Source: Kangiella sp. HZ709
GTDB lineage: Bacteria; Pseudomonadota; Gammaproteobacteria; Enterobacterales; Kangiellaceae
DNA length: 64,000 nt
Assembly: GCF_009674675.1 (NCBI RefSeq)
Contig: NZ_WKJC01000001.1
Coordinates: 937,031-1,001,030, forward strand
Direction of reading: 5' to 3'
Below are positions 16,242 through 34,300 of the stretch, one piece after another. How positions within the stretch are numbered: the stretch's first letter is position 1; every line of letters begins with the position of its first letter. Both the position numbers and the translations under genes were made by a program. Under the pieces are notes generated by a model that saw only the letters and a list, made by a program, of their open reading frames with translations, had not been told where the DNA came from and did no database searches.

Positions 16242-16431
16242 ACTCCATATTATTTATATTCTATCCAATCATACCCAACAGTGCTCGAATGGCAATAAAC
16301 TATTTCACGATAAGCTAAAAGAATTTTCTTAAGAAACAATTTGTTACATGCTAATTCGGTCTGGCTATAAACCTTTTAATACACCTCTACATCTAAAGAG
16401 TAACTCAACAACAAATGAATAGAGGGATCCC

Positions 16432-17205: not shown

Positions 17206-17292
17206 TAGTAAGCCGCAAATAATGCTTCCCTAGCAAGTCAAAGCGGTCTTTATCCTTCAACAGTACAACCAACTGTGGCTGCTTTGATCTTC

Positions 17293-17320
17293 GCCCTAGC
17301 TTTGGCTAGGGCTTTTTTTT
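17293..17320 (+). terminator. Rho-independent terminator before fabA
   Basis: Stem GCCCTAGC / GCTAGGGC with a 4-nt loop (TTTG), followed by eight T. It is about 90 bp beyond the beta-helix gene. Confidence 0.88.
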
Positions 17321-17349
17321 GCAAAATAACCTCATTTTGTTTGAATTCC

Positions 17350-17366
17350 ATCTGATCCAACCAGAT
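17350..17366 (+). promoter_or_regulatory. FadR-like operator at the fabA promoter
   Basis: ATCTGATCCAACCAGAT matches 14 of 17 bases of the E. coli fadB FadR operator ATCTGGTACGACCAGAT (recalled). A likely -10, CATAAT preceded by TG, lies at 17384-17389, which puts the site around -38. In E. coli FadR activates fabA from about -40, so the architecture agrees. Confidence 0.6.
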
Positions 17367-17428
17367 TAAGCCTATTATTTGTGCATAATAGCCATCCATT
17401 TAAATTAGGCAGCGTTTGAATCTGCCCT

Positions 17429-17980
17429 ATGAGTGTTATTATGAAGCTTGAACAACCAGAAGCTAAGCAGCGCCCTGCTATGCTTAGTAAAGAAGATTTA
17501 CTCGATTGCGGTCATGGCAAAATGTTTGGTGATGGCAATGCTAAATTGCCCCTTGGCAACATGTTAATGATGGATCGCATTACCAATATTCAAGACGATG
17601 GTGGAGAGTTTGGCAAAGGTCAAATCGTCGCTGAGCTTGATATTAACCCTCAGCAATGGTTCTTTGGTTGTCACTTCGAAGGTGATCCAGTTATGCCTGG
17701 CTGCTTAGGTGTTGATGCTTTATGGCAACTGTCAGGCTTCTTCCTTCCTTGGCTTGGTCACCCGGGTAAAGGGCGTGCTTTAGGCGCTGGCGAAATAAAA
17801 TTTACGGGACAAGTACTTCCAACTTCAAAGCTAGTCACTTATATTATCGATATTAAAAGAGTGATTACTCGCAAGTTGAAAATGGTTATTGCCGACGGCC
17901 GTATGCTAGTCGATGGTAAGCAGATATACACCGCTAAAGATTTACGTGTTGGGTTATTCCAATCCACTGAAAATTTTTAA
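17429..17980 (+). CDS. fabA: 3-hydroxydecanoyl-ACP dehydratase/isomerase FabA
   Basis: FabA dehydrates 3-hydroxydecanoyl-ACP and isomerises the trans-2 to the cis-3 enoyl product, the branch point to unsaturated fatty acids. The 183-residue protein is slightly longer than in E. coli because of the N-terminus; an internal ATG at 17441 is an alternative start. The catalytic His and Asp are in [20 protein letters not shown] (about residues 81-100). It pairs with fabB 65 bp downstream, so both are likely in one unit. Confidence 0.97.
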
Positions 17981-18045
17981 GCAAGCCATTTAAGTAGAAT
18001 ACTGGTAATCACAAATACCATAAAAACAAACAGCTAGGTTTTTTC

Positions 18046-19263
18046 ATGAAAAGAGTTGTAATTACAGGCATGGGCATAGTGTCTTGCCTTGGTAATAATG
18101 TTCAGCAAATAACTGATTCATTAAAAGCAGGTCGTTCCGGCATTAAAAAAATAGATGCATACGAAGAGTATGGCTTACGTAGTCACTTAGCAGGCAGGCC
18201 AGATATCGATATCAGCGAACATATCGATCGTAAAAAACTACGCTTTATGGGTGATGCCGCAGCCTACTCTTACATTGCCATGCAGCAAGCCATTGATGAC
18301 GCAGGTTTAACTGAAGACATGGTATCTAATCCACGTAGTGGGTTGATCATGGGCTCTGGTGGTGGTTCGCAAGGAACACAAGTAGAAGCCATTGATATTG
18401 CCAAAACGCGTGGTCCAAAACGTATTGGCCCTTATGCTGTTCCTAAAACTATGGGCTCCACAACTTCCGCTTGTCTTGCCACCCCTTTTAAAATACTTGG
18501 AATCAACTACAGCATTACCTCTGCTTGTGCCACTAGTGCCCATTGTATCGGTAATGCCTATGAGCAAATTCAGTTAGGCAAACAAGATATTATGTTTGCC
18601 GGTGGTGGTGAAGAAGAAGATTGGCGTTTAACGGTTTTATTTGATGCTATGGGCGCCCTTTCGAGCAAATACAATGATTCACCAGAGACTGCTTCTAGAC
18701 CTTACGATTCGACACGTGATGGCTTTGTTATTTCTTCTGGCGGCGGCTGTTTAGTGTTAGAAGAGTATGAGCATGCCAAGGCTCGCGGCGCAAAAATTTA
18801 TGCAGAGATCACTGGCTATGGCGCTACTTCAGATGGTTACGACATGGTAGCACCTTCTGGCGAAGGTGCTGCTCGCTGTATGCGGATGGCATTAGCAACA
18901 GCCAATCAAGATATCGATTATATTAATACTCACGGTACTAGCACCCCAGTTGGTGACACTGCCGAATTGGGAGCCATTCAAGAAGTATTTGCTGGTAAAG
19001 AAAAACTTCCTTATATAGGTTCGACTAAATCCCTAGCAGGTCATTCGCTTGGTGCAACCGGTGTGCATGAAGCTATTTACTCGCTAGTCATGATGCAAGA
19101 TAGCTTTATTGCCGCTTCTGCCAACATCACTGAATTAGATGAAAAGGCCGAAGGTTTACCTATTGTGAGAGAGCGCGTAGATAATGCTAATATTCAAAGT
19201 TTCTTATCCAACAGTTTTGGTTTTGGCGGTACTAACTGCTCGTTAGTGTTTGAAAAACTATAA
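18046..19263 (+). CDS. fabB: 3-oxoacyl-ACP synthase I FabB
   Basis: FabB elongates the cis-3-decenoyl-ACP made by FabA and is needed for unsaturated fatty acids. The 405 residues have the usual thiolase-fold sites: Cys in [13 protein letters not shown] near 163, His in [11 protein letters not shown] near 300 and His in [12 protein letters not shown] near 335. Its place behind fabA, as in pseudomonads, supports FabB rather than FabF. Confidence 0.97.
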
Positions 19264-19280
19264 TTCTAGTTCTAAAAATA

Positions 19281-19309
19281 AAAAAAGGCGCTTAAAGCGC
19301 CTTTTTTTA
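19281..19309. terminator. Bidirectional terminator after fabB
   Basis: Stem AGGCGCTT / AAGCGCCT-type hairpin (19286-19302) with A-run before and seven T after. It stands between convergent fabB and the methyltransferase-like gene. Confidence 0.9.
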
Positions 19310-19322
19310 TAGAAAGTGGAAA

Positions 19323-20093
19323 TTAAGGTTTCCTAAATTTTAGAGTCCAGCGATCCGTTTTACCTGTCACTGTTTCGTGCCCTACTTCTTTAGTTAAATC
19401 GTCCGCTTCTTTGTAGTGGAGCATTGAGTAGTCAACTAATACAAAGCCAGCATCTTGAATTTCTTTAATCGCTAAAACTGGATCAATTCGGCGACGCATA
19501 TCAGCACTAAAAGGCGTCATATGACGACGAGTGTGATCAATAACGCCATAGATACCGCCTGATTTAAGTGCTTTAAAAGCAGCTTTATTCATACTCATGC
19601 GGCCAGTTTTATCAAAGTTATGATAGTTACGGAATGTTAGCACCATATCCACAGGCTCAACATCAAACTCGAACTCTTCTACACTGCTTAAACGAAGCTC
19701 TTCATTACGACTCGCTTTAATTTCAGCGTCCAAAATCTCCATTTTTTCGAAGCCCGGTTTATCGGCTAAGCTTTTACCCATACGTCCAGCAAACATACCG
19801 GCATAATATTTACCCTTTTCGGCCAAAGTTGGCGCTAGTAATTTTGAATACCAACCGCCACCAGGGATCAGCTCAATGACCGACATATCATCACGGAAAT
19901 CAAAAAATTCTAGCGTTTCAATAGGCTTACGATTCGTATCGCGCTTAATATCGGCTTCACCACGAACTTCAGCTTTCATCGCCTTAGTCATAGTCACTTT
20001 CCAAGAAGCCATTTTCTCTTTTGCTATAAGGTTAGAACTAGTCAATGCTAAACCAAGCCCTAAAGCCACAGCTGCTGTAATCATTTTTTTCAT
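19323..20093 (-). CDS. Exported methyltransferase-like protein
   Basis: A 256-residue protein with a signal peptide (MKKMITAAVALGLGLALTSSNLIA) and a class I methyltransferase-like domain: motif I is VIELIPGGGWYSKLLAP near 69, and a later VDMVLTFRNYHNFD near 148. It resembles predicted SAM-dependent methyltransferases of the COG4798 type. The start at 20093 follows a GGGGA site 5 nt upstream. Export of a SAM enzyme is odd, because SAM is not expected in the periplasm; it may bind another ligand. Confidence 0.75.
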   Translation of the reverse strand: MKKMITAAVALGLGLALTSSNLIAKEKMASWKVTMTKAMKAEVRGEADIKRDTNRKPIETLEFFDFRDDMSVIELIPGGGWYSKLLAPTLAEKGKYYAGMFAGRMGKSLADKPGFEKMEILDAEIKASRNEELRLSSVEEFEFDVEPVDMVLTFRNYHNFDKTGRMSMNKAAFKALKSGGIYGVIDHTRRHMTPFSADMRRRIDPVLAIKEIQDAGFVLVDYSMLHYKEADDLTKEVGHETVTGKTDRWTLKFRKP

Positions 20094-20172
20094 TGGGATC
20101 CCCATTCATTAAAAGTCGACATATTAAACATTAAAGATGAATAAGCTGTCAAAACGCTACAATTAGTATTAA

Positions 20173-20430
20173 TTATTTTAACTGGTCTATTTTTAAAATT
20201 TTTTGATAGAAGTCTTCTTTTTCAAAAGCATTTTTGGCTTCAAGCTTATATTTATTGTGAAAGAACACCGATAAATGCACCTTATCATCGGTCAACTCAA
20301 TGGTGTAACCGTCGTAACTAGCCACCGCAAACAAGCCTTTATAGAAAGTACGAGCCCCTTGCTTCTCCCCTCTTTCCAAAACCTTCTGATAGACGCTTAA
20401 AATAGTTTTAATGTCATGTTCTATGCTCAA
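20173..20430 (-). CDS. Small DUF3081-like protein
   Basis: An 85-residue soluble protein with no signal or membrane segment. The middle part, ASYDGYTIELTDDKVHLSVF followed by FHNKY, resembles DUF3081 proteins of other marine gammaproteobacteria as I recall them. The function is unknown. It stands alone, about 80 bp upstream of the exported methyltransferase-like gene and in the same direction. Confidence 0.5.
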   Translation of the reverse strand: MSIEHDIKTILSVYQKVLERGEKQGARTFYKGLFAVASYDGYTIELTDDKVHLSVFFHNKYKLEAKNAFEKEDFYQKILKIDQLK

Positions 20431-20540
20431 TAGTTACACCTCTGCTTTGATAATGATATGAAATTAACGGTAAATAGGGTGTGAAAGCTATCGGCCTGAA
20501 TAGAAAAAAAGAAATAATAATCAAATTAACGATAGGCACA

Positions 20541-20569
20541 AAAAAACTCGCTTAAAGCGAGTTTTTTTT
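20541..20569 (-). terminator. Rho-independent terminator after the lipoprotein pair
   Basis: Stem AACTCGCTT / AAGCGAGTT (20545-20563) with an A-run and T-run on either side. On the minus strand it ends transcription just past the 140-residue lipoprotein gene. Confidence 0.88.
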
Positions 20570-20990
20570 ATTTAGAATGACAACTTACTCCACCTAAAGA
20601 ATCCTCAAAATCTACTCCAGTTACTTTATTATCATTTTTCTTAACGACTTCAATAAAGCAACCTCCTTGAAGCAACTCAAGGTTGACTATGTACTTTTGA
20701 TTTTCCAAAGGAATAAAAGATGCTTTAGGGCCACACGAATAACTCATGTAGCCATGATCCATATAGACCCATTTCATTATAGTAATTCTTTCATTAGCAG
20801 GCACTTTTAATAAACCTGACTTTTTATCTAATGGTACATCATAAAAAGTTGAGTCTTTACATATACTAACAGAACCTAAACCCATGTTTTCTACATAGGC
20901 AATTTTTTCACCGTCTTGGAACTTATACTTCTCCATACAACCGGTAAATAATAAACTGGCAAAAACAATGATAGTCAGCTTAATTTTCAT
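20568..20990 (-). CDS. Small lipoprotein of unknown function
   Basis: A 140-residue protein with a lipoprotein signal (FASLLFTGC, Cys near residue 18). The mature part holds four further cysteines that could form disulfides (SICKDST, YSCGPKA, GGCFIEV, VSCHSK). I do not recognise the family. Its start overlaps the stop of the upstream lipoprotein by 4 bp, so translation of the two is probably coupled. Confidence 0.65.
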   Translation of the reverse strand: MKIKLTIIVFASLLFTGCMEKYKFQDGEKIAYVENMGLGSVSICKDSTFYDVPLDKKSGLLKVPANERITIMKWVYMDHGYMSYSCGPKASFIPLENQKYIVNLELLQGGCFIEVVKKNDNKVTGVDFEDSLGGVSCHSK

Positions 20991-21430
20991 GATTTACCTC
21001 TCTTATTTTTTTCTTTTTTTGGCGGATTGACTATGTGATTATACTTTTCAATCACTTCATCAGCATTTAGAGAGTTTTCATTTGGGTTTTCTAACAACAA
21101 AACGTATGCAAATGCAGTTGGTTTGCCTCCCACAGAGCCAAGCATAACTGTATCACTTGTTATATCCTTTGAAGCATTTATCAAACTAGTATACATTTGG
21201 AAAAAGCTCTTCCCTTGTTCTTTTGTATATTCTGCTGAGCGATAAAGCGCATAAATTTTAGCTGTTTCATGCTCAATAAAACCATTACCTGAAAAGTATA
21301 CTTTTGTGAGTTTTCCTGGGCCTGGGGTTTCATCGAAGCCTCCAGACCAAGAAAATAAACCCGAGCTTTGATAAGGTGTTGCACATCCATTAAGCAATAA
21401 GAATATAAATATAATAATTATTTTTTTCAT
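20987..21430 (-). CDS. CC0125/CC1285-like lipoprotein
   Basis: A 147-residue protein with lipobox LLLNGC (Cys near 16) followed by ATPYQ. The pattern TPYQ, GGFDET, VYFSGNGF, ALYRSAEYT matches the CC0125/CC1285 lipoprotein family as I recall it; these are small envelope proteins of unknown role. AGGAGG precedes the ATG. It is the first gene of a two-gene lipoprotein unit and starts only 20 bp after lysS, in the same direction. Confidence 0.65.
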   Translation of the reverse strand: MKKIIIIFIFLLLNGCATPYQSSGLFSWSGGFDETPGPGKLTKVYFSGNGFIEHETAKIYALYRSAEYTKEQGKSFFQMYTSLINASKDITSDTVMLGSVGGKPTAFAYVLLLENPNENSLNADEVIEKYNHIVNPPKKEKNKRGKS

Positions 21431-21450
21431 TTTCCCTCCTAAGTTAGTAT

Positions 21451-22950
21451 TTATTCTGGTCTCATGTGAGGGAATAGTAACACGTCACGAATACTTGGCG
21501 AATCCGTCAACAACATTACCAAACGATCAATACCAATACCTTCGCCTGCAGTTGGTGGTAAGCCATATTCTAAAGCGCGTATATAGTCCGCATCAAAATG
21601 CATCGCTTCATCATCACCGGCATCCTTTGCTTCCACTTGCGCTTTGAAACGCTCAGCTTGATCTTCCGCGTCATTCAGCTCCGAGAAACCATTGGCTAAC
21701 TCGCGACCGCCAGCAAAAAACTCAAAACGATCAGTAATGAACGGATTATCATCATTGCGTCTTGCTAAAGGCGATACTTCCGCTGGATATTCTGTAATAA
21801 AGGTCGGTTGAATTAATTTGTCTTCTGCTAGTTCTTCGAAGATTTCGATTTGAACTTTGCCTAAGCCCCAAGAGTCTTCAAGTTTTACATGGAATTTTTT
21901 AGCCACTTCACGCGCCGAATCTATATCATTTAATTGCTCAAGGCTGATTTCTGGCTGATGTTTTATAATGGCTTCTAAAACCGACATACGTTCGAAAGGT
22001 TTACCGAAATCGTATGTAGCCCCAGCAGATTCAAATACCGTTTTTCCTAACACTTGTTCAACAGTGTAACGCAGCATATCTTCGGTGAGGTTCATCAAAT
22101 CTTGATAGTCTGCATAGCCCCAATAAAATTCCAACATAGTGAATTCAGGGTTATGACGAGTAGATAAGCCTTCATTACGGAAGTTACGGTTGATTTCATA
22201 CACTTTCTCTAAACCGCCAACGACCAATCGCTTTAAATACAGCTCAGGAGCAACACGCAAGAATAAAGGCATATCCAGTGCATTATGATGGGTTTCAAAT
22301 GGACGCGCAGTGGCGCCACCTGGAATCACGTGCATCATTGGAGTTTCTACTTCTAAAAAGTCACGTGCTTCTAAGAAATCACGAATCGCTTTAACCACTT
22401 TTGAGCGCGCCACAAAAGTTGCTCGCGAATCTTCATTCACGATCAAATCCACATAACGCTGACGGTAGCGAGTTTCTTGATCCGCAAGACCGCCCCATTT
22501 ATCTGGTAATGGACGTAACGATTTTGTTAATAGTTGAATCGATGAGGCTTTGACTGAAAGCTCACCTTTATTGGTTTTAAAAACAGTTCCTTCGATACCG
22601 ACAATGTCACCGATATCCCAAGTTTTAAAATCATCATAAACTTCATCGCCAACTTGATCTTTACGCACGTAAGACTGGATACGTCCTGACATATCTTGAA
22701 TGGTGATAAAAGAAGCTTTACCCATATTACGGAATAACATGATACGGCCAGCAACCTTCACCTTCTTACCGATTTCTTCTAATTCTGGTTTTTCAATTTC
22801 ACCAAATTCAGCAATAACATCAGCCGCAACCGTGTCACGTCTAAAATCATTCGGGAAGGCAATCCCCTGTTTTCGTTTTGCCGCTAACTTCTCTTTACGT
22901 AAAGTAATTTGCTCGTTAACGTCAACTACTGGGGTTTCTTGATTGCTCAT
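21451..22950 (-). CDS. lysS: Lysyl-tRNA synthetase, class II
   Basis: LysS charges tRNA-Lys. The 499 residues show an N-terminal OB-fold anticodon domain ([18 protein letters not shown]), class II motif 2 ([20 protein letters not shown], near 265-284) and motif 3 ([20 protein letters not shown] near 470). It follows prfB in the same direction, the conserved prfB-lysS pair, but with 194 bp between them that contain a palindromic element. Confidence 0.98.
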
Positions 22951-23019
22951 GTTTTTTGTTTCACCTCTTTCATCATTATGATGATAGTTTTTAAATTATC
23001 TCTCTAAATTTGTACCAAT

Positions 23020-23145
23020 ATCTAAGCGTTATGAGCGCAGCAAAGGCAAGGCTTTCATGAATTATAACGCGGAGATTACCTATAAGGTAATTGAGCATTT
23101 AGAATTCATGTATAACGCAGCACTTGCAAGCGCAATAGCTTAGAT
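23020..23145. repeat. 126-bp long imperfect palindrome (MITE-like element)
   Basis: Concentric inverted repeats share one centre near 23083: ATCTAAGC / GCTTAGAT (23020-23027, 23138-23145), CATGAATT / AATTCATG (23056-23063, 23103-23110) and ATTACC / GGTAAT (23075-23080, 23086-23091). Weaker pairing joins the arms between. It ends on the first base of the prfB stop codon complement. It codes for nothing and looks like a miniature palindromic repeat; copy number cannot be judged from this window. Confidence 0.6.
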
Positions 23146-24243
23146 TAAACGCCGGCTTTAAGGCTGGCCTCTATAAAGCTATCCAAGTCACCATCTAATA
23201 CCGCTTGAGTATTACTCGACTCGTGACCTGTTCGTAAATCTTTAATTCTTGATTGATCTAATACATAAGATCGGATCTGACTACCCCAACCGATATCCGA
23301 TTTACCATCTTCCATAGCTTGTTGTTCGGCTTGTTGCTTTTGGATTTCTAATTCGTACAACTTAGCTTTTAACATCTTCATCGCTTCAGCGCGATTTTTA
23401 TGCTGCGAACGGTCATTCTGACATTGCACTACCGTATTGGTTGGAATGTGAGTAATGCGTATAGCTGAATCGGTTTTATTGACGTGCTGACCACCTGCGC
23501 CTGAAGCCCTAAAAGTATCAGTTCTTAAATCCGCAGGATTAATCTCAATATCAATATCATCATCCACTTCTGGATAAACAAAAACTGAAGCAAATGAAGT
23601 ATGACGCTTACTGTTTGAATCAAAAGGCGATTTGCGCACTAAACGGTGAACACCTGTCTCAGTTCGCATCCAACCGTAAGCGTATTCACCGGAAACTTTA
23701 ATGGTCGCATTTTTAAGACCAGCCACCTCGCCTGCTGACTCTTCAGTAATCTCAACTTTAAAACCACGACTCTCAGCCCAGCGTAAATACATACGGAAAA
23801 TCATACTGGCCCAATCTTGGGCTTCGGTACCACCAGAGCCTGACTGAATATCAAGGTAACAATTGTTCTCGTCCATCTCACCAGAGAACATGCGACGAAA
23901 CTCTAGCTTGGCTAATCTCTTTTCGAAGTCACCGGCTTCTTCTTCAATCATCTCTACCGAATCAGCATCGTTTTCTTCAACTGACATTTCCAATAAATCT
24001 TGATTATCCGCGATACCTTCTTCTAGCTTAAGAATGGTTTCGACAACCTCTTCTAATTTAGCGCGTTCTTGGCCTAATGCTTGAGCTCGCTCCTGATCAT
24101 TCCATACATCAGGCTGCTCTAATTCGCGGGAAACTTCTTCTAAACGTTCTTGCTTAATATCGAAGTCAAAGGTACCCCCTCAGCGTTATCAAACGCTCAG
24201 CCATACCTTTTAAATGTTCTCTTATAGGATTTACTTCTAACAT
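23145..24243 (-). CDS. prfB: Peptide chain release factor 2, with programmed +1 frameshift
   Basis: RF2 ends translation at UAA and UGA. An ATG at 24243 opens a 25-codon frame that stops at TGA (24168-24166); reading continues in the +1 frame at GAC (24167-24165), giving 365 residues in total, the E. coli length. The shift site is CTT TGA C with AGGGGG (24180-24175) just upstream, as in the autoregulatory site known from E. coli. SPF tripeptide ([12 protein letters not shown]) and GGQ motif ([15 protein letters not shown]) are present. Confidence 0.97.
24163..24180 (-). promoter_or_regulatory. prfB +1 programmed frameshift site
   Basis: The minus strand reads AGGGGG TAC CTT TGA C. The internal Shine-Dalgarno-like AGGGGG, the slippery CTT and the in-frame TGA have the spacing of the E. 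coli RF2 site. Low RF2 slows stopping at this TGA and favours the shift, so the protein sets its own level. Confidence 0.95.
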
Positions 24244-24384
24244 TGTTATGATTCTTCTATATTACCGCCGGCAGAGCCACTATAGTCAATGCCATAAAAG
24301 TCGTGTATTTTATCGGATATAGTGAAAGGTGCCTAGCCAAATTCTGCTTGGAAAGTCACTAAATTCAATAAAATAGCAAACTTT

Positions 24385-25020
24385 ATGCCAAATCAAACTT
24401 ACCCGCCGTCAATCCACCTTGAAAATGACTTAGATAAACTGCTACCGCTCATCCAGCAGTTTCCTTTCGCCACCCTGATTTCTAGTCATAATGATGAAAT
24501 TGAAGTCACTCAAGCACCGCTAGTGATTGAACAATCGGCTGGCAAAATCTATCTGCATGGTCATCTGGCAGGCGATAACCCTCATGGCGACCTTTTAAAT
24601 AACAGCAAAGTCACCGTTATTTTTCACGGCCCAAACTGTTATATCTCTCCTAACGATTATGCCAGCAAGCAACTGCCTACTTGGAATAGCGTATCGGTGC
24701 ATATCAAAGGGAATTGCCAAACCACCAAAGAGCCCGACGAGCTTTATCGAATACTCAAAATAATGGCCGAGCAATTTGAACAAGATAGTCCATCCGCTCA
24801 ACCTAATTATCAGATACAGCGCAGCGAAGAAAAAACCGCCCGCCTCATCCACCATATTACCGGCTTTAAAATTGAAGTCGCCGAAATAATTGGGCGCTAT
24901 AAATTATCAAAAGATAAGTCCGAAGAGGATATGAAGTTAGCGGCCGAAAAATTAAAAGCCAATGCAAATCAAAGGGTAGATGAATTATTAAGCAAAGTCC
25001 TTCTACTACATGAAACATAA
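24385..25020 (+). CDS. FMN-binding negative regulator, PaiB family
   Basis: A 211-residue PaiB-like protein. Typical motifs are FATLISS near 28, LHGHLAGDNPH near 54, and PTWNSVSVHIKG near 92. PaiB proteins have a split-barrel FMN-binding fold and were named for repression of protease genes in Bacillus; DNA binding is not obvious from sequence. It is divergent from prfB and has no partner gene downstream in the same unit, because the cassette array follows. Confidence 0.88.
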   Translation: MPNQTYPPSIHLENDLDKLLPLIQQFPFATLISSHNDEIEVTQAPLVIEQSAGKIYLHGHLAGDNPHGDLLNNSKVTVIFHGPNCYISPNDYASKQLPTWNSVSVHIKGNCQTTKEPDELYRILKIMAEQFEQDSPSAQPNYQIQRSEEKTARLIHHITGFKIEVAEIIGRYKLSKDKSEEDMKLAAEKLKANANQRVDELLSKVLLLHET

Positions 25021-25225
25021 AGCTATCTTATTAAACAAAATAACCTCCCCTTTTCTTTTATTAAGCCCTTGATTTTGTTATGGTTTGTAAAACACTACGG
25101 GAACCAAATTGTCCGCTTTCAAGGGGTAATTAAGAGCAAAAGGGATCTGAGAAATAAATGTTTTATAAATCAATCAATTATGTGCGATGTCGCATATACA
25201 CCTGTTATGTGTCAAAGGAGGACTA

Positions 25226-25447
25226 ATGTCTGAGCCGAAAGATAGGGTGGTTGTTGCTAGTGATGTTAACCCTCGTGACGGCATTGGCGTTGAAATTTAT
25301 CGAGATGACGAACTTGTAGTTGAGATATTTCGAGATGATACAAATAGAACTCGTACCGTTACTGTTTTCAAAGAATCTATCTCTTTAGAACTAATGGAAG
25401 AGTGTATTCAAACTTTTAAAAAAAAGAAATTCCGTGGGATTTCATAG
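25226..25447 (+). CDS. Cassette 1 protein, unknown function
   Basis: A 73-residue soluble acidic/basic protein starting MSEPKDRVVVASDVNPRDGI. AGGAGG stands 5-10 bases before the ATG at 25226, which decides the start; a longer reading from 25187 would cross the cassette junction. There is a duplicated phrase (VEIYRDDELV then VEIFRDDTNR), and the tail is lysine rich. No signal or membrane segment. I do not recognise the family. It starts 21 bp after the recombination point, as cassette genes usually do. Confidence 0.75.
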   Translation: MSEPKDRVVVASDVNPRDGIGVEIYRDDELVVEIFRDDTNRTRTVTVFKESISLELMEECIQTFKKKKFRGIS

Positions 25448-25463
25448 ATTATGACGAGTAAAC

Positions 25464-25523
25464 ACATAACAAGAAAAGGCAGGATGCACGCGCTACCGCG
25501 CGTCGCTGCTTTAAGCGTTATGC
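25464..25523 (+). other. attC site 1 (cassette 1), 60 bp
   Basis: From ACATAAC to GTTATGC, with TAACAA at the left. Between the cores a hairpin forms: GCAG / CTGC and ACGCGC / GCGCGT around loop TACC, with unpaired GATGC against CG, the kind of extrahelical bases that set attC strand choice. Size and layout match short '59-base elements'. Confidence 0.82.
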
Positions 25524-25537
25524 GTCAAGAGGTTTTT

Positions 25538-26086
25538 ATGCGTAATTTAAGTATTGTTTTAATTTTTATTAGTTACCTCCCACTCGTTTCACTTGCTGAT
25601 CAACAAAGTGTTGTTCCGTTGAAAGTTGGAAATGAATGGAACTATGTCGTTAATAACAGCGAAGACAACATTCGTAAATCTGAAATCCTCAAGAAAGAAA
25701 CAATTGATGGTGTAGATTGGTATCTATCGCAAGAGTTTGGAGACTTGTTTTGGGTTTCAAACCAAGAAGCGGGGCAGTTTGAAGCGATAAATAGTTTTGG
25801 TGAGATGAAACTTCAAAGTGATCCTCTTGAACAAGAGCTTATACTCAAATTCCATGATGGTAAGAAGTTTTCATATAGCACCAGTGGTGGAGATATACAA
25901 GTTGAGCCATGTGAGGAAAAATTGGTAGTTCCCGCCGGCGAGTTTGAATGTGTAAAATACACGTTTGATCTTGGCGGAGGTGATTATTCAGTGAGTTACT
26001 ATTCAGTTGGAGTTGGCCTAATTAAGAACGAGTTTAAAACCAATGAATCAGTTGAAGTTTCTGAGCTCAGCTCATTTAAGCTCTAG
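25538..26086 (+). CDS. Cassette 2 protein, exported, unknown function
   Basis: A 182-residue protein with a signal peptide (MRNLSIVLIFISYLPLVSLA). The mature domain is rich in beta-type segments (KVGNEWNYVV, TIDGVDWYLS, FWVSNQEAGQF, GLIKNEF) and holds two cysteines (EPCEEKL, FECVKY). AAGAGG precedes the ATG at 25538; the longer frame from 25451 runs through attC1 and is rejected. I do not recognise the family; it resembles small outer-envelope proteins that read NEW(N/T)Y near the start. Confidence 0.75.
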   Translation: MRNLSIVLIFISYLPLVSLADQQSVVPLKVGNEWNYVVNNSEDNIRKSEILKKETIDGVDWYLSQEFGDLFWVSNQEAGQFEAINSFGEMKLQSDPLEQELILKFHDGKKFSYSTSGGDIQVEPCEEKLVVPAGEFECVKYTFDLGGGDYSVSYYSVGVGLIKNEFKTNESVEVSELSSFKL

Positions 26087-26088
26087 AC

Positions 26089-26229
26089 GCATAACAATGC
26101 AATGAAGTACGCTCCAGTACCTGACGATGCTTCCGCCGGACATTTCACTGCGGGTAGCAATTTGTGCGTTATTTCATTCTCGCACAAATTACGTCCCTCC
26201 GTAAAATGCCGCTTATTGCGACGTTAGGG
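26089..26229 (+). other. attC site 2 (cassette 2), 141 bp
   Basis: From GCATAAC to GTTAGGG. A 28-nt arm at 26141-26168 pairs with 26181-26208 at 22 of 28 positions, leaving a 12-nt loop; GCAAT near each end also pairs. About 28 bases on the left arm have no partner, so the fold is lopsided. The core sequences still match the flanking cassettes exactly. Confidence 0.75.
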
Positions 26230-26235
26230 CGCAAA

Positions 26236-26805
26236 ATGATCAAGAATCTAATTATATTTGGCCTTTTATTTCTTTCGGTTCAATCTTATGGAGCAGACTC
26301 GATGTTCATGAAATCTATTCCGGAGAACTTTAAGGCTCCAGATCCTGAAAGTGAATATGATATCCAGCTTCTAAAAAATATTGACGAGCTCGGTTGGTAC
26401 AATTTGCATGTTTCTGAGGAGGGTGGGAGGCCAGCCTTTGCCTTCTCGTTGGGCCACTTTCATAAGAAAAATCATCCAGAAATAATAGTGATTGGCCTTC
26501 CTGCAGAAGTTGCTCATCAACTGCTAAATATTGCGGTGGTTAAGATTGTTGGGGCACAAGAAAAAATTGAGCCCTACAAAAAATATACGGACTTTACAGA
26601 AGGTCTGTCCGTTGCATTTGTGCCCGTTGGTCTCGAGCATTATGGTGAATACTTAGGCTATGCAAACTGGTACTATGGGGCATTGGAAAAACCGTTTCCT
26701 GCCATACAGATGGTATGGCCTGATCGCGAAGGCAAGTACCCGTGGGAGAGTGGCTATGACAAACGCTATCTTTCAATTCAGCAAATCTTGGGGCCAATGC
26801 CCTAA
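26236..26805 (+). CDS. Cassette 3 protein, exported DUF4262 domain
   Basis: A 189-residue protein with a signal peptide (MIKNLIIFGLLFLSVQSYGA) and a DUF4262 domain: ELGWYNLHVSEEGGRPAFAF, HKKNHPEIIVIGLP, then IQMVWPDREGKYPWESGYD. DUF4262 proteins are small and mostly cytosolic; their function is unknown, so the signal peptide is unusual. The ATG at 26236 lies 12 bp from the recombination point and the AGGG of the core GTTAGGG serves as ribosome site. The TAA stop lies within the left core of the next attC. Confidence 0.82.
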   Translation: MIKNLIIFGLLFLSVQSYGADSMFMKSIPENFKAPDPESEYDIQLLKNIDELGWYNLHVSEEGGRPAFAFSLGHFHKKNHPEIIVIGLPAEVAHQLLNIAVVKIVGAQEKIEPYKKYTDFTEGLSVAFVPVGLEHYGEYLGYANWYYGALEKPFPAIQMVWPDREGKYPWESGYDKRYLSIQQILGPMP

Positions 26806-26847
26806 CAAGGCGCCCCAATATTTCCCTAGGTTACCGCGGCGTTAACG
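26800..26847 (+). other. attC site 3 (cassette 3), short
   Basis: From CCCTAAC, which is the reverse complement of the core opening the cassette, to GTTAACG. Only 48 bp, shorter than the usual minimum near 57, and the stem is weak. The right core departs from GTTRRRY and overlaps the stop codon of the thioesterase on the other strand. It looks like a decayed or truncated array end. Confidence 0.55.
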
Positions 26848-27333
26848 ACGTTTAGGAACCCAAGCCCAAATCATTTCTGCTTCAATCGGTTCTTTTCCCT
26901 CTTCATCGGTAACTGTCACAGCAACCGTGACCTCGCCTTTTTCGGTAGTTAGAATCGCATCAATTTGCTCTTGAGTAAGATGCGCTTTTGCGGTCAAAGC
27001 ACCAACGGCTCTTTTAACGTAATTAATATTCATGCTTTTTATCACAGGAATTTTATCATCTGGCACATGCATACCAACTACCATGCCTGTGGCTGTTTCC
27101 GCCAATAGCGCCATCGCTGCAGCATGTACTGAACCTATATGGTTTTGTACTTTAGTGCGGTTCTCAATTTTAAAAATAGATTCTTCTGCGGTTAGTTTAA
27201 TGGCGTCGACCTTAGCTGTGCCGACTAATTTGACCGTCTTTCTTAAAGCATAATTCAATGCTGGTCTTTGTAGAAACTTAGGTAACTTTTTAGTTTTGGC
27301 AATGGCGCGAACGAGTCGATTGGGCTTAGTCAT
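26842..27333 (-). CDS. DUF4442 hotdog-fold thioesterase-like protein
   Basis: A 163-residue hotdog protein: VQNHIGSVHAAAMALLAETATG (about residues 82-103) is the conserved N/D...H-x-G-type helix of the acyl-CoA thioesterase fold, followed by PVIKSMNINYVKRAVGAL. It resembles the DUF4442 group, related to the C-terminal domain of YiiD. Substrate unknown. The stop codon sits at the right boundary of the cassette array; the C-terminus (WAWVPKRR) looks natural. Confidence 0.8.
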   Translation of the reverse strand: MTKPNRLVRAIAKTKKLPKFLQRPALNYALRKTVKLVGTAKVDAIKLTAEESIFKIENRTKVQNHIGSVHAAAMALLAETATGMVVGMHVPDDKIPVIKSMNINYVKRAVGALTAKAHLTQEQIDAILTTEKGEVTVAVTVTDEEGKEPIEAEMIWAWVPKRR

Positions 27334-27396
27334 CTATCTTTTACAGGTAATGTGAATTGAATTTAGATTACCCTTTCAGAGCATTCCTGTAAAGTG

Positions 27397-27423
27397 GTCA
27401 TACCATTGAGGTTCGGGTATGAC
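27397..27423. promoter_or_regulatory. Inverted repeat in the thioesterase/redoxin divergent region
   Basis: GTCATACC and GGTATGAC are separated by 11 nt, about 95 bp before the redoxin start. Its 11-base TGGTCATACCA also occurs at 13570-13580, upstream of the other redoxin module. Possible operator; no direct proof. Confidence 0.4.
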
Positions 27424-27517
27424 TGTCTATTGAATAATAGCGATTTAACTATAACCTATTTGTAACATTTAGGGTTTGTGCTAGTTTGATCATTCATTGT
27501 TACTAATAAAAAATACC

Positions 27518-28366
27518 ATGAGCAATTTACTAAAATCTTTATTCATTAGCCTCGCTTCTGTTTTTGCATTTGTGGTTTCTATTCTGGCTATCCAGCAGCT
27601 TTTCTTGGGATTTAATTTAACTTGGTTAGGCACTTTAGTTGCGGCGGCGCCCTTTGCCCTATTGTTATCTTGGTTATTCTTGATTGGAACTGCGAGAACC
27701 AGCGCTAATTTAATGATGATGTTAGAGGTTTCAATTATCGGACTTATTGTTAGTGTGGTTGGTTTTATCTTGCACGATTTAAACGATTATTGGGCGCTCG
27801 TATTATCGATTACCGCGACATTAAGTGCTTTGGCTTACATCTTTTGGTACTCAAAATTTAACCAGCGAGATTGTTCAAAATTAGCTGTGGGTAAACAGTT
27901 ACCCAATGTGGAACTGGCCGATATTAATGGCCAACCAATTAACACCGACAGTTTTAAAGGCAAGAAAACGCTAATGATCTTTTATCGAGGTAATTGGTGC
28001 CCTTTATGTATGGTGCAAATTAAAGAATTGGCGAGCAGTTATCAAAAGCTTGCTGAGTCGGGCGTCAGAATTGCTCTCGTTAGTCCTCAATCACCGAAGC
28101 ACACACAATCTTTAGCAAAAAAATTTGAAGTCCCTTTCGAATACTATATTGATAGAAATAATCAGGCTGCCAAAAAGTTAGGGATATTTGCTAAGAATGG
28201 TTTGCCCTTTGGGCTACAGATTTTCGGTTATGAAAGCGACACTGTGATGCCAACGGTTGTGATCACCGATAGTAACAATCAAATTCATTTCGCTGATCTG
28301 ACTGATAACTATCGAGTCCGGCCTGAACCTGAAACATTTACTGAGGTTTTAGCCCAAATAAGTTAA
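27518..28366 (+). CDS. Membrane-anchored peroxiredoxin-like protein
   Basis: A 282-residue protein with about four N-terminal membrane helices (to residue 115) and a C-terminal redoxin domain. The redox motif is FYRGNWCPLCMVQIKELA near residue 155 (CPLC). The redoxin part is probably on one side of the inner membrane; which side is not certain. It is 94 bp ahead of a DUF885 lipoprotein and related to the exported redoxin at 12765, which also neighbours a DUF885 gene. Start chosen at ATG 27518. Confidence 0.85.
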   Translation: MSNLLKSLFISLASVFAFVVSILAIQQLFLGFNLTWLGTLVAAAPFALLLSWLFLIGTARTSANLMMMLEVSIIGLIVSVVGFILHDLNDYWALVLSITATLSALAYIFWYSKFNQRDCSKLAVGKQLPNVELADINGQPINTDSFKGKKTLMIFYRGNWCPLCMVQIKELASSYQKLAESGVRIALVSPQSPKHTQSLAKKFEVPFEYYIDRNNQAAKKLGIFAKNGLPFGLQIFGYESDTVMPTVVITDSNNQIHFADLTDNYRVRPEPETFTEVLAQIS

Positions 28367-28392
28367 TTATATTTACTGTAAAAATCTGTTTC

Positions 28393-28417
28393 AAAGCGCT
28401 TTTTTAGCGCTTTTTTT
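28393..28417 (+). terminator. Terminator between redoxin and DUF885 gene
   Basis: Stem AAAGCGCT / AGCGCTTT with a T5 loop and T-run behind. It suggests the downstream DUF885 gene mostly has its own promoter. Confidence 0.8.
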
Positions 28418-28460
28418 ATGCTAGTCTAACTGCTTATTCATTATTAACTGATTGATTACT

Positions 28461-30338
28461 ATGAAAATAAAATTAACCTTAACCGCGTTAGCTGTGTCAT
28501 TGGCTTTAGTCGGATGTAATGACTCAAACGAGCAAGAAAGAAGCATTCCTGAGCAAACAGCTACTCAAACATCTACCCAAGAATCAGCCAAGCAAGAAGC
28601 CGCTCAAAAAGCTGCTGCAAAACCAAGCATGACCGCCGAGCAAGCCTCAGCAAAACTGAACCAATTATTTGAAGAGAATTTCCAAGCGGGACTAAAACTA
28701 AATCCTATCCAAGCCACGGCAATTGGGATTCCCGGTTACAACGATAAATTACCCAATTTTCTATCGCCTGAGTTTCAAGAACAATCTCGTCAGTTTGGCG
28801 ATGAATGGTTAGCTAAAATTAAACAGATCGATCGTAATCTACTTTCGGGGCAAGACCGTTTAAGTTATGACATTTATCTTTATAACGCCGAGTTAGGCAA
28901 ACAAGGTGAAGAATTTCCTGGTGAGTTAATTCCAATCAATCAATCTTCTAATATTGCCAACTTCTTTGCCCAATTAGGTTCAGGACAATCTTTCCAACCT
29001 TTTAAAACCGTTGAAGACTATGACAATTGGCTTAAACGTATTGATGGTGGCGTTGCCATCATGCAACAAGCTAAAACTAACATGCAACTTGGTATCGAAA
29101 AAGGGGTGACTCAACCTCAAGCATTGATGGAAAAGGTATTACCACAATTTAAAGCGCATATTGTGGATGATGTGACTAAAAGTGTTTTCTATCAGCCGAT
29201 CACAAATTTTCCAGAAGACTTTTCTGAGGAAGATAAGAAGCGTCTAACGGAAGCTTACCGTTTAGCTATTAGCGAAAAATTGGTTCCAACTTATAAAGAG
29301 TTGCATCGTTTTGTTGAACAAGATTATTTACCTAAAGCTCGAACAAGCTTTGGTTTAAGCGAACATCCTAATGGTGAGGCTTGGTATAATTATCAGTTAA
29401 AAACCTTTACCACAACGGATCTAACCGCGGAACAAATTCATCAATTTGGCTTAAATGAAGTAGCGCGCATTCGTAGCGAGATGGAAGGCGTGATGAAAGA
29501 AGTCGAGTTTGAAGGTACTTTGGCTGACTGGTTTAAATATGTGCAGACTAATCCAGAGTTCTATTATGACAATGAAGAAGACTTGCTGCAGGGTTATCGC
29601 GATCTGCAAGACAAGGTTAATAAACTCTTGCCGTCGATGTTTGATATCCAGCCGAAAGCAGACTATGAAGTCAGAGCGGTTGAAGCTTTCCGCGCAGAAT
29701 CTGCTGCTGGCGCTTCTTATATGTCAGGAACACCTGACGGTTCACGCCCAGGCATTTTCTACGTCAATACTTTTAATCTAAAAGGTCAGCCTAAGTTTGG
29801 TATGGAAACTTTATCCATCCACGAAGCTGCGCCAGGTCACCATTTCCAAATCTCGCTTCAGCAAGAAGTGGAAGGTTTACCGATGTTCCGCCGTTTTGGT
29901 GGTTTGAGTGTGTTCTCCGAAGGCTGGGCACTCTATGCAGAATCTATTGGTAAAGAGATGGGTATGTTTACCGATCCTATGCAGTATTACGGTCGCTTAA
30001 GTGATGAAATGTTACGCGCCATGCGCCTAGTGGTGGATACCGGTTTACACGCCAAAGGATGGTCACGTCAAAAAGCTATCGACTATATGATGGAAAATTC
30101 ATCCATGGCCGATACTGACGTAGTGTCTGAAGTTGAGCGTTATATCGCTTGGCCGGGACAAGCGGTGTCCTATAAAGTTGGACAGCGTGAAATATCCAAT
30201 ATGCGGGCAGATGCTGAGAAACGCTTGGGCGATAAGTTTGATATTCGCGAATTCCATCGCCAGGTATTAATCGATGGTTCACTTCCAATGCCCGTACTTA
30301 AGACTAAAATTAACGAATGGGTTGAATCTAAGCTTTAA
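28461..30338 (+). CDS. DUF885 family lipoprotein, putative zinc peptidase (paralogue)
   Basis: A 625-residue protein with lipobox LALVGC (Cys near 19) and a Gln/Ala/Glu-rich linker before the DUF885 domain. HEAAPGHHFQ near 456 and EGWALYAE near 485 are the metal-site motifs. Long stretches match the paralogue at 14292 (for example LMEKVLPQFKAHIVDDV and GSRPGIFYVNTF). Start set at ATG 28461; an upstream TTG at 28452 adds three residues only. Likely an envelope-bound peptidase; substrate unknown. Confidence 0.85.
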   Translation: MKIKLTLTALAVSLALVGCNDSNEQERSIPEQTATQTSTQESAKQEAAQKAAAKPSMTAEQASAKLNQLFEENFQAGLKLNPIQATAIGIPGYNDKLPNFLSPEFQEQSRQFGDEWLAKIKQIDRNLLSGQDRLSYDIYLYNAELGKQGEEFPGELIPINQSSNIANFFAQLGSGQSFQPFKTVEDYDNWLKRIDGGVAIMQQAKTNMQLGIEKGVTQPQALMEKVLPQFKAHIVDDVTKSVFYQPITNFPEDFSEEDKKRLTEAYRLAISEKLVPTYKELHRFVEQDYLPKARTSFGLSEHPNGEAWYNYQLKTFTTTDLTAEQIHQFGLNEVARIRSEMEGVMKEVEFEGTLADWFKYVQTNPEFYYDNEEDLLQGYRDLQDKVNKLLPSMFDIQPKADYEVRAVEAFRAESAAGASYMSGTPDGSRPGIFYVNTFNLKGQPKFGMETLSIHEAAPGHHFQISLQQEVEGLPMFRRFGGLSVFSEGWALYAESIGKEMGMFTDPMQYYGRLSDEMLRAMRLVVDTGLHAKGWSRQKAIDYMMENSSMADTDVVSEVERYIAWPGQAVSYKVGQREISNMRADAEKRLGDKFDIREFHRQVLIDGSLPMPVLKTKINEWVESKL

Positions 30339-30349
30339 TTTAGATTACC

Positions 30350-30426
30350 GTCATCTCCGCGAAAGCGGAGATCTTGTTTAGATTTAGCAATCAACTAAAT
30401 TTGATTCCCGCTTACGCGGGAATGAC
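30350..30426. repeat. Palindrome doublet of REPIN type
   Basis: Two hairpins: ATCTCCGC-GAAA-GCGGAGAT (30353-30372) and ATTCCCGC-TTAC-GCGGGAAT (30404-30423). The pair is framed by GTCAT at the left and ATGAC at the right, so the two units are in inverted order. ATTCCCGC...GCGGGAAT palindromes are dispersed widely in proteobacteria. Here the doublet lies between convergent genes and may also act as terminator. Confidence 0.75.
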
Positions 30427-30437
30427 ATAATATTAGT

Positions 30438-30803
30438 CTATATCCAATCTAAGTCTTCAGCTTCTAGCCTTCGTTCATCAGAACTCTCGCCAGTGTTGAT
30501 CACTGATTTAGGCTCAATCATTAAAAAGTGTGTTTCTTCCTCAGCATAAGGACAATGCTGAACTCCTTTGGGAACAATAAACATTTCTCCGACATTTAAG
30601 ACAATATCCTGTGACTCTAGCTTTAAAGTTAATTGCCCTTTGAAAACAATAAACAGTTCATCAGCATCATCATGCTGATGCCAAACGAGTTCACCCTGAC
30701 CTTTAGCTATTTTAACTAGCTGTTCATTTGATTCTGCCAGCACTTTGGGAGTCCAATGCTCATCAAACAAACTGAATTTTTCTGCTAAGTTGATTTTTTT
30801 CAC
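30438..30803 (-). CDS. Cupin domain protein
   Basis: A 121-residue single-domain cupin. Metal-binding motif 1 is WHQHDDADELFIVFKG (His, His and Glu; about residues 45-60) and motif 2 is PKGVQHCPYAEEE. Such proteins are isomerases, dioxygenases or sugar binders; the sequence does not tell which. Its start overlaps the GNAT gene stop by 4 bp, so the two are co-translated. It is the last gene of the alkB run. Confidence 0.82.
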   Translation of the reverse strand: MKKINLAEKFSLFDEHWTPKVLAESNEQLVKIAKGQGELVWHQHDDADELFIVFKGQLTLKLESQDIVLNVGEMFIVPKGVQHCPYAEEETHFLMIEPKSVINTGESSDERRLEAEDLDWI

Positions 30804-31342
30804 TTTATAATTAAATCTCTTTTTAAGACCCCATATGCCAGTTCATCTTGCCATGTGTCACCAAACTTAAAATGCTCTTTAAAATGACCTTCTTGCTGCA
30901 TTCCATGGCGTTGCATCAATTTATAAGAAGCCGTGTTTCTAGGATCGCAATAAGCAACTAATTTATGAAAATCCCAATGCTCATTGATATGCTTAACCAT
31001 TGCATCAACGGCCTCGGTACCAAAGCCTTTACCATGGAAATCTTTATTAAACTTATATCCTAGTTCGATTTGCAAATGCTCTTTATTAGAATATCGAAAC
31101 CCGACATCGCCAATTAAAGCTCCACCATCAATTAATTCAACCGCTAACGCCATCCATTGTCCCTGTTCGCCTTGCCAATCTTTTTGAAAACCTTTAAAGG
31201 CTTCGTGAGTTTCTGCTTTTGAACCCACCGGCCGAATGAACTTCATCACTTCTGGATCTAAACCGTATTTGCAATAGTCCTCAAAGTCGGACTCCAGCAT
31301 TGGTCGTAAAATTAATCGTTCAGTTGTAATCGTTGGTATCAT
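30800..31342 (-). CDS. GNAT family acetyltransferase (RimJ/RimL-like)
   Basis: A 180-residue N-acetyltransferase: TERLILRPMLESDF near residue 5, LGYKFNKDFHGKGFGTEAV near 93 with the acetyl-CoA loop, and NTASYKLMQRHGMQQEG near 140. The target, protein or small molecule, is unknown. It overlaps the helicase gene and the cupin gene by 4 bp each, so it is part of a compact operon. Confidence 0.88.
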   Translation of the reverse strand: MIPTITTERLILRPMLESDFEDYCKYGLDPEVMKFIRPVGSKAETHEAFKGFQKDWQGEQGQWMALAVELIDGGALIGDVGFRYSNKEHLQIELGYKFNKDFHGKGFGTEAVDAMVKHINEHWDFHKLVAYCDPRNTASYKLMQRHGMQQEGHFKEHFKFGDTWQDELAYGVLKRDLIIK

Positions 31343-34300
31343 ATCACTTCCACAAATTTTTGATGCATAGGATAATAAAGTGCTTTTTTGATTTCACGGT
31401 TTTCTAGTTGTTGCAAAGCTGCTTGATACTTATCTAACTGCGGCTTGTAACGCTTCATTTCCGACTGTATAAAACCCTCTAAATCCGAGCCCAAATGTTC
31501 ACCTGATTTATAATCTATAATCCATCGTATATTATCTGCATCAACAAAGGTCCTATCAATGATCATATTTTGAATTTCTTGTTCGCCCTCTGCGTTAATC
31601 ACACAATGAGATAAAGACCACTCACAAAATGCTTGCTGATGTGGCTGTAGAATCCAAGACATTTTTGGATCAGTAGTCATCAACTCAATCGCTTTTAGAA
31701 TTTTCTTAAAGGCCTGTTGCTGCTCTTGCTTATCCGCCAATTGCTCAGCTAGGGCTGTTTTCACTAATGAATATTCGCTATTAACTAAATCAGCCCACTG
31801 GAGTTGACCGTTACCAATCGATTCCAATAGCTGATGTATTACTAACCCAGCCACTCGAGCGACATCACTCGCCCAATCAAAATCAATGTCTGTTTCAACC
31901 GGCTTCACCTTTTCAATCTTACCCAAAATTGAATCAACTTGCGGCAAGGAAGTATTAGCTTTAACTCTATACCACTCATAACTTTCATTTTGATTAGTCG
32001 CATCATTCTCAACTTCAAAGCTTAAATCATTGAAAGTCTCCTCAATCGAACTATTATAAAAAGGAGTCAAATAATGTAGTAAGGATTGTTTAGACACTGG
32101 ATTAAATGTCCATTCATCTTTTCTATCGTCATATTTAGTTTTTAACTCGCAACTCAGATACAAACGCTTTTTAGCACGAGTAGCAGCCACATATAAAACC
32201 CGAGCATCTTCATACTGAGATTTCTTGTTCTGAATATCACGTGCCAATTGATAAATAGGTTCTTTGGTTTCTTGCGCTTGGATGGGTGCTAATAGATAGT
32301 GTTGCTCATACCCTGAGGTAAACTCTTCCCAAATTAATAATTGATGATCATCCGCTCGTTTACGCTTTTCTAACGAAGGCAAGAAGACGGTATCAAACTC
32401 TAAGCCCTTGGATTTATGCATGGTCATAATTTCCACATCATCATCCAACTTTTTCTGCTGTGCATAAAGTTGCGCTAAGGCTGATTCGATAACATCTATG
32501 GTCACGATTTTTTGCGCTTGCTCTTGCTTGAGCAGCACTGTAAAGAAAGATTCAGCTTCAATTAACGCAACTTTATTAAGAAGAGCACTGGGGCCTCCCA
32601 CTGACAGCCATAGAGTTTCGAGTACTTGTGACAAAGGTTTACGGCCGGTTTGATCTAGCGCATCTACTAGATACTGGGCTTTGCTTGCCAATATCTTATA
32701 AGCTAATTCACTAAGTCCTGTAACTTTATCAAATTGAGTTAAAAAACTTAAATAATGAGAGCCGAATCTTTGTTGCAGTTGGCTGATGTCTGCTAAAGGT
32801 AATCCAAAATATGGAGATTTTAATGCCGCAACAAAAGCAATCGCATCAAACGGTTGTAGTAAAAACCTTGCCATACTGATCAAGTCAGTAATGACGGCTT
32901 TATGCTTTAGAAGCTGCATATCCTTGGCATAAAAACCAACTCCAGCTTCATTCAAAGCTTTCGCAATCGGCTCTGCATGACTGCGACCACGAACTAAAAT
33001 AGCAATAGACTGCTCGGGGTTTTGTTCCTTTAGTTGTGTAATTTGCTGAGCGATATTTTCTGCTTCTGAAACCTCTGACTCATCAAAACTGCTGATAAAG
33101 TTAACCGAATCATTAGTAACCATTGGCTTCATAGCTATTGCCGGTGAATAACTCACGGCGCCTAACAAGGCATCATTAAATTCTGGGAAAATTTTCGAGA
33201 ACTTATCATTCACCCAATCGATAACCACTTGTGACGATCTAAAATTAGCCGTAAGTGTTAACGGCACTATATCTATATCGCCAATGCCATCTTGCTGCGT
33301 TTTAATAAACAAACCGACGTTAGCTTCTCTAAATCGGTATATCGATTGCATCGGATCGCCGACTAAAAAAAGCGTTCGCCCGTCATGTCTTTGCCAACCG
33401 GCAATCAGCTTATTCAATAATCGATATTGGGTAAAAGAAGTGTCTTGAAACTCATCCACTAATATGTGAGAAATCTGGTAATCCAGCTTTAAGGCCAAAT
33501 CACTGGGCTCATCAAAATAGCCAAGTGCTCTATCAGCTGCTAAAGAAACCTCAATAAAATCAGCTTCCGAGCGAGACTGAAAATCTATATTGAGTTCAAT
33601 CGTTGCTAGTCGCAAGAGTTTCAACAATGAACTCAATAACTGTTGTTGATTATCACTATAGATGGCTAAAGGAAAATTATTAATATCCGATATTGCTTCA
33701 GCAAAACCCTTAACTTCTGACCAAGTTTCAAATTGCGCTTTTAAGTCCGCTTTAATTTGTTTACCAACGACTTTATCCTCGCCTTCAAGATCTTTATCTG
33801 CCAACAGACCTTGGTTTTTATTCAGGCTCTTTCTAAAAGTCCCAGATGCAGTTAAACAAAAATCAGCAATGGCTTTCCATTGAAGGAGATGATCTGCATT
33901 AAACTCAGGCAAGGTTTGAATTTGCTTTAGTTCTGCTGACGGATGTGATTTATCGATAAAACCTGCTGCAAATTGAATCGCTGTAATTAATGAAGATGCT
34001 TCAAAACTGGTTTTAAATTGAGACAGCTGCTGTAAGCGTAAGTTAGCAATTTCGGTAATACCTTGCTGAAGTATACTGATATCTAAATCGCCAGCACCTA
34101 ATAAGCGCAACCATTGATCACGCTTTGCTAACATCTTTGCCAAGAGACCAATCAAGCGCTCTACTTGATTATCCAGATGGCTTAATAGCAAAACTAAATC
34201 TTCAGAGTAATCATCATCGTTTAAGTAACTCAACACCGCTTGAGCAGCATCTTGATAGGATTCTTGTGGAAATTCAGTAATCCCTAACGAACCTCCAAGG

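Follow-up and report, generated by a model that had tools for sequence, protein, structure and literature searches.

The window, a 64,000-nucleotide stretch of a Kangiella genome (G000; 2.41 Mb in 11 contigs, completeness 100; window at positions 937031-1001030 of contig C3), carries three genes on the + strand between a paiB-like and a thioesterase-like gene. The sequence and the open reading frames (ORFs) were read directly; the three attC sites lie on the + strand in array order. The features of the interval are as follows (R1 and R3 are attC models and R2 is an attI model, all described below):

24385..25020, + strand: left flanking gene, paiB-like FMN-binding protein (Pfam FMN_bind_2, 6e-37), outside the array
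25101..25207, + strand: satellite attI (R2 67.9 bits, E 4e-20; homology to native attI spans 25089-25207)
25204..25210, + strand: attI/cassette 1 crossover core GTTATGT, the reverse complement of ACATAAC at 25464-25470
25226..25447, + strand: cassette 1 gene, 73 aa, no family above cut-off
25464..25523, + strand: attC site 1 (R1 20.7 bits, R3 26.9 bits)
25538..26086, + strand: cassette 2 gene, 182 aa, weak DUF3108-like match below cut-off
26089..26229, + strand: attC site 2 (R1 20.7 bits, R3 30.3 bits)
26236..26805, + strand: cassette 3 gene, 189 aa, DUF4262 (Pfam 9.3e-39)
26800..26847, + strand: attC site 3, short and weak (R3 17.0 bits, R1 3.4 bits)
26842..27333, - strand: right flanking gene, thioesterase-like DUF4442 (Pfam 6.6e-28), outside the array

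In addition to the pair of cores in cassette 1, exact pairs are formed by GTTATGC (25517-25523) with GCATAAC (26089-26095), and by GTTAGGG (26223-26229) with CCCTAAC (26800-26806). With GTT/AAC taken as given, four free bases in each core and uniform base composition assumed, the chance of three such matches is ~4^-12. The cassettes of the window thus have the reciprocal cores of a sedentary chromosomal integron. The R' of attC site 3, GTTAACG (26841-26847), overlaps the stop codon of the thioesterase gene and forms the right edge of the insert. The array also has what defines a CALIN, i.e., at least two attC sites in one direction and no intI nearby. The three cassette genes gave nothing against PADLOC at E <= 0.01, a BLASTN search of the array against plasmids gave no match, and Rfam returned one irrelevant sub-threshold match only.

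The attC sites were evaluated with two covariance models. The training set of R1 consisted of 39 attC sites located next to intI genes, from other integrons of the class. TIGR02249 was found above cut-off in 137 of 369 genomes, and 17 stretches were used; from 48 picked sites, 5 were dropped by eye as false, and 4 of the remaining 43 for poor alignment. MAFFT misaligned L' on full-length attC; trimmed and N-loop versions of the alignment were made, and the N-loop version was used. When R1 was run on 24300-27500 with filters off, sites 26089-26229 and 25464-25523 were the best two of 17 matches (E <= 10), both with an E of 5e-4 for 3.2 kb. With default filters over the 64 kb, 26089-26229 was the sole match up to E 10 (E 0.011). 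On the intI-adjacent array of the sister genome, G014, R1 gave 21.1, 19.6, 19.6, 17.5 and 11.7 bits, and 12.4 bits for the attC at the paiB locus of that genome, hence 20.7 bits is a normal score for the genus. At E <= 0.1, a genome search with R1 missed even the intI-adjacent array of G014 and returned no site in either G014 or G000. R1 is therefore insensitive for the genus, and a genome-wide blank is no evidence of absence. R3, a Kangiella attC model, was built from 62 attC sites found by R1, with no window site in the training set. On 16000-36000 with filters off, the three window sites were the top three of 11 matches, and the next one scored 14.6 bits. Over 40 sources, R3 gave 42 matches at E <= 1; at this threshold the 15 congener paiB-thioesterase loci without a recognised array had none, nor did that locus in G013 or G009, nor comM in G000 (L148). 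An attC search demanding complementary outer cores found nothing in the window; it is unsuited to arrays, in which R' is part of the following cassette. A search that required a strict stem likewise failed to recover the window sites. The three cassettes, three attC sites and exact reciprocal cores described in the sequence-only reading were confirmed by direct reading and by the covariance models.

The same reading held that the array has no integrase, and none was found above the TIGR02249 cut-off among the ORFs of 22000-30000 or in the whole G000 genome, where 8 weak matches lie below the cut-off. An intI gene above cut-off is present in 9 of 20 Kangiella genomes, including the sister G014; the other 11 genomes, G000 among them, lack one. 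A comM homologue lies beside intI in all nine cases, and the outer flanks also match in eight; in G007 the match is confined to comM and intI and spans about 0.9 kb. The cores of the native attI sites are 244-251 bp from the intI start. In G000, comM is followed by a 114 aa ORF and then, as read by eye, by one relic cassette, whose attC ends where the last attC of G014 does; intI and the remaining array are missing. The suggestion that the cassettes were captured by an integrase since lost is thus borne out, with the sister genome still carrying intI. Since G000 now has no integrase, its platforms are at present inert.

What had been overlooked in the otherwise accurate description of the array is the attI at 25089-25207, to the left of cassette 1. 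It was detected with R2, an attI sequence model made from nine integrase-adjacent (native) attI sites of congeners. Over 119 bp, the window attI shares 88% identity with the attI beside intI in G011; its identity to the corresponding site of G015 is about 81%. The sole other R2 match in the window up to E 10 is at 16290-16358 (13.1 bits, E 0.005), and is probably due to chance. That the left edge is a secondary (attG) site is disfavoured by its homology to the native attI of congeners: the entry site matches both native attI and R2, and is not of the attG kind. The window array is headed by an attI, as is a sedentary chromosomal integron, and has no functional intI beside it. The earlier designation as a CALIN is right about attC sites without intI, but it is incomplete, because the array is headed by a homologue of the attI native to the genus. 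Judged by its sequence, the array is an integron platform minus the integrase gene, and more than a CALIN.

We then define as satellite an attI copy away from the native comM locus; all counts are lower bounds at the cut-off used, E <= 1e-6, as 150 candidates per genome were scored. In the 20 Kangiella genomes R2 found at least 93 sites: 9 native ones, 3 at comM with decayed or lost intI, and at least 81 elsewhere. The comM copies with decayed intI were kept out of the satellite count (3 at this cut-off, and a fourth, L260, at 4e-5). One of the 81 sites (G009:C1:86501) lies 51 bp from a contig end, and a native intI beyond it is possible. Satellites occur in 20/20 genomes, with at least 2 to 10 copies in each. 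G000 has at least three: the window copy, C4:405884 and C3:1539078. With the native attI of G014 as BLAST query, five further places were found in G014 at E < 1e-7; in G000 only C3:1538999 scored well and the window copy was missed. The 112 non-Kangiella genomes of the order gave no R2 match at E <= 1e-6, and five at E <= 0.001 (best 2e-4); this run used stricter filters, with which seven Kangiella genomes in the same run kept strong matches. The genome set contains many MAGs or drafts, with one genome per species.

To search for attC, 80 attI loci were taken, a few of them with copies just above 1e-6. R1 detected 62 attC sites in 33 of the 80 loci (E <= 3), and R3 a further 23 in 20 of the other 47 (E <= 0.5); in 27 of the 80, no attC was found with R1 and then R3. 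All 85 attC sites are downstream of an attI copy and on the same strand: 77 accompany satellites, and the other 8 belong to comM sites whose intI has decayed; the strand is the informative part of this result, since more downstream than upstream DNA was taken. The 60 bp before the core are conserved across the attI copies, which is partly an effect of model selection, and conservation stops just past the core. Upstream of satellite attI sites such as L200, L203, L211, L216, L222 and L224, about 100-130 bp before the core, there is a TGATTTTGCTACTATC-like stretch, possibly an outward promoter; by eye, none was seen beside native attI sites.

The paiB-thioesterase locus was compared among congeners. 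The thioesterase gene was found in 19 of the 20 Kangiella genomes, including G000; G012 had no match and is not among the loci compared. The order lysS, prfB, thioesterase is the same in the 18 congener loci compared, and the three window cassette genes are absent from all 18, and also from the other loci compared (L030 and up), except for G000's own. G000 and G014 share 95.8% identity as far as position 24962, which lies within the 3' end of paiB; homology returns at 26839 with the same GTTAACG, and the thioesterase genes are 99% identical. At the same spot G014 has another attI copy and one different cassette of ~3.2 kb, which is bounded by GTTATAC and GTATAAC and ends at the same GTTAACGACG as the window array. 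The comparison with relatives that had been proposed in advance thus came out in favour of an array, with a different cassette in G014 and the three genes missing from congener loci. The G014 cassette (L030 616-3830, G014:C1) carries SMEK, MC6 and DUF2326 genes, which make up an ABC-three component system. With PADLOC, its first gene matched Aga_REase-PNTD1-PNTD2 (residues 3-170) and its last PDC-M68B; this ABC-3C cassette is a candidate defence system in cassette form.

At the paiB locus of G014, the attI copy shares 81% identity with the native attI of the same genome across 180 bp. The G013 copy at this locus matches the native attI of G016 at 72% (134 bp) and that of G013 itself at 82% (68 bp). 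In G009, an attI-like piece of 21-29 bp is left. An array behind the G013 copy was read by eye; its attC sites were confirmed neither by R1 (best 10.7 bits) nor by R3 (nothing at E <= 1). Since R3 was silent here and at L148, visual inspection is the basis for both the G013 array and the relic comM attC. Content at the window locus differs between G000 and G014, but left homology already breaks in paiB. This break, together with the differing attI types of the two genomes, suggests that a larger segment was likely exchanged there by homologous recombination. In congeners without cassettes (L037-L042 and L046), the thioesterase gene is preceded by long imperfect palindromic repeats, many of which have a centre resembling GGAGTTTACT...AGTAAATGAC; there was no attC match in them.

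If cassettes enter by site-specific recombination at attI, homology between orthologous sites is predicted to break at the attI core. We assembled 11 groups of orthologous satellite sites with 1.2-1.5 kb of left flank common between species; for a group to be chosen, homology had to reach the core, and what lay beyond it was ignored. As predicted, left homology ended 0 to +11 bases from the end of the attI core in 17/17 pairs, with a gap from -226 to -51 in the pair L245/L262. In all these pairs, from 11 groups other than the window locus, variable content lies behind the conserved left flank. The right flank resumes within the DNA taken in 14 of the 17, e.g., at +2762 in G014 and at +1353 in G000. 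In three pairs (L203/L232, L216/L238 and L229/L237) the resumed right flanks begin with a AATAANTGGGGTCAGAGTA-like motif. Furthermore, a cassette of the native array of G010 recurs at the head of a satellite array of G017, with 91.6% identity over 1109 bp, from the GTT core in both. Among the loci compared, no Kangiella genome was found to have a near-identical cassette in both its native array and a satellite array.

Two genomes outside the genus, G101 and G367, were tested with their own native attI regions. G367 has a single attI copy, with further matches at E 0.09 or more. G101, which belongs to another family, has two extra attI copies of 58 bp, 91-93% identical and ending at the core (L269 4959-8994 and L270 7013-7385). 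One of them heads seven attC sites, and the other is followed by an attC of 53.5 bits. Two cassettes that are adjacent at the start of the G101 native array recur behind the copy with seven attC sites, 100% identical over 405 and 628 bp; each begins at its GTT core, and another cassette lies between them. In contig coordinates, ~1.5 Mb separates this site from the native array. A single intI match was found in G101 at E <= 1e-60, and Kangiella IntI found no match in its two satellite stretches. From sequence comparison, these identical cassettes are the most direct sign of traffic between native and satellite platforms.

Many attI copies share roughly 80-300 bp with native sites, and some retain remnants of intI beside them: residues 11-174 of 330 in L218, two separated parts in L204, 26 residues in L260 and the last 19 in L188, the last three loci being at comM. 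In L218 (1616-2338, G007:C5) a second attI has the N-terminal half of intI attached, and this apparently represents an intermediate in intI loss. The satellites are probably copies of integron fragments in which intI was truncated or lost and attI was kept. The remnants are also what would be expected if the loci were dead relics, i.e., old integron copies that lost intI and whose arrays have since been inherited and exchanged by homologous recombination only. The exchanged segment at the paiB locus, which includes the paiB 3' end, and the 11 of 20 genomes without intI above cut-off, G000 included, fit this explanation as well. We nevertheless consider it unlikely, because homology breaks at the crossover core in every one of the 17 pairs, identical cassettes are separately placed in the native and the satellite array of G101, the cassette common to the G010 native and the G017 satellite array is shared from the core on, and the 60 bp before the core are conserved across copies, even if partly through model selection.

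That the window array is an ordinary CALIN, with cassettes put into a non-attI site (attG type) by a past integrase, would agree with attC sites lacking an integrase and with a right edge that is plain chromosomal GTTAACG; given a left edge that matches native attI over 119 bp and reaches 67.9 bits with R2, which was trained on sites beside intI, it appears very improbable. Slighter still is the chance that the attI-like sequence is a general dispersed intergenic repeat with cassettes beside it by coincidence: it is multi-copy and 27 of the 80 loci showed no attC, but the attC sites found are without exception downstream on the same strand, conservation stops just past the core, and nine copies are the attI of integrons with a full intI.

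We conclude, with a probability of about 0.83, that the window locus is an integron platform without intI, consisting of a satellite attI and three cassettes, on which IntI would have acted in trans. Such action in trans on satellite attI is inferred from the core breaks and the common cassettes. In the proposed mechanism, IntI made elsewhere would join a circular cassette by recombination, through its attC, to the G/TT core of the satellite attI, and cassettes would thereby enter behind a fixed left flank; in G000, the trans integrase presumably acted before the native intI at comM was deleted. With some reserve, we also lean towards a broader proposal, a distributed integron in which one integrase, or at times none, would serve stand-alone attI sites across the chromosome, several of them at the same loci in different species and each gaining its own cassettes. 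G101 would follow the same design, and such sites may be the hidden reason for recurring CALIN/SALIN places.

Integrons are described as one integrase beside one attI. The platforms reported here are like a sedentary chromosomal integron (intI-attI-array) in their attI, cassettes, attC sites and array direction, but here intI is missing, there are several attI per genome, and G000 is without any intI above cut-off. They are also like attG insertion sites, reportedly the subject of Loot et al. 2024, in having cassettes away from the main integron. However, attG sites are neither attC nor attI, as cited in the retrieved text of PMC12444791 and PMC12901181, and the Kangiella sites are attI copies. 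A further likeness is found in class 1 and 2 integrons, whose Delta-attI-type cassettes have an attI that is displaced from intI and still recognised by IntI1 (PMC12901181, partial text). As far as that text goes, these are mostly short attI pieces that replace attC inside an array, whereas in Kangiella the attI is some 60-120 bp long or longer and stands at the head of a separate array elsewhere in the chromosome.

CALINs and SALINs (single attC) share with the window array attC cassettes without a neighbouring intI. Scattered CALINs/SALINs are described in Shewanella (PMC9229058), and in Xanthomonas CALINs occupy seven loci, as against a broad spread of attG insertions (PMC12444791); the latter source also describes CALINs as mobilisable in trans. 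The window array differs in starting at a native-like attI, none being described at the Shewanella and Xanthomonas clusters in the retrieved parts of these two papers. The output of IntegronFinder comprises complete integrons, In0 and CALIN (PMC9024848). In a literature search of titles and the starts of abstracts, with subscription papers and preprints mostly outside it, no report was found of an orphan, second or dispersed chromosomal attI. In the retrieved text, the phrase "second attI site" occurs once in PMC7056807, and "attI-like" twice in PMC10127599.

If this interpretation is true, a single distant integrase supplying many attI sites would extend the gene bank of an integron from one locus to the whole genome. 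A cassette could then land beside different chromosomal genes, and an integron could outlive its integrase. A search for intI and attC alone would miss satellite platforms, which a lineage-specific attI model reveals. Satellite attI sites could also explain the fixed genome positions of CALINs, for which they offer a testable reason.
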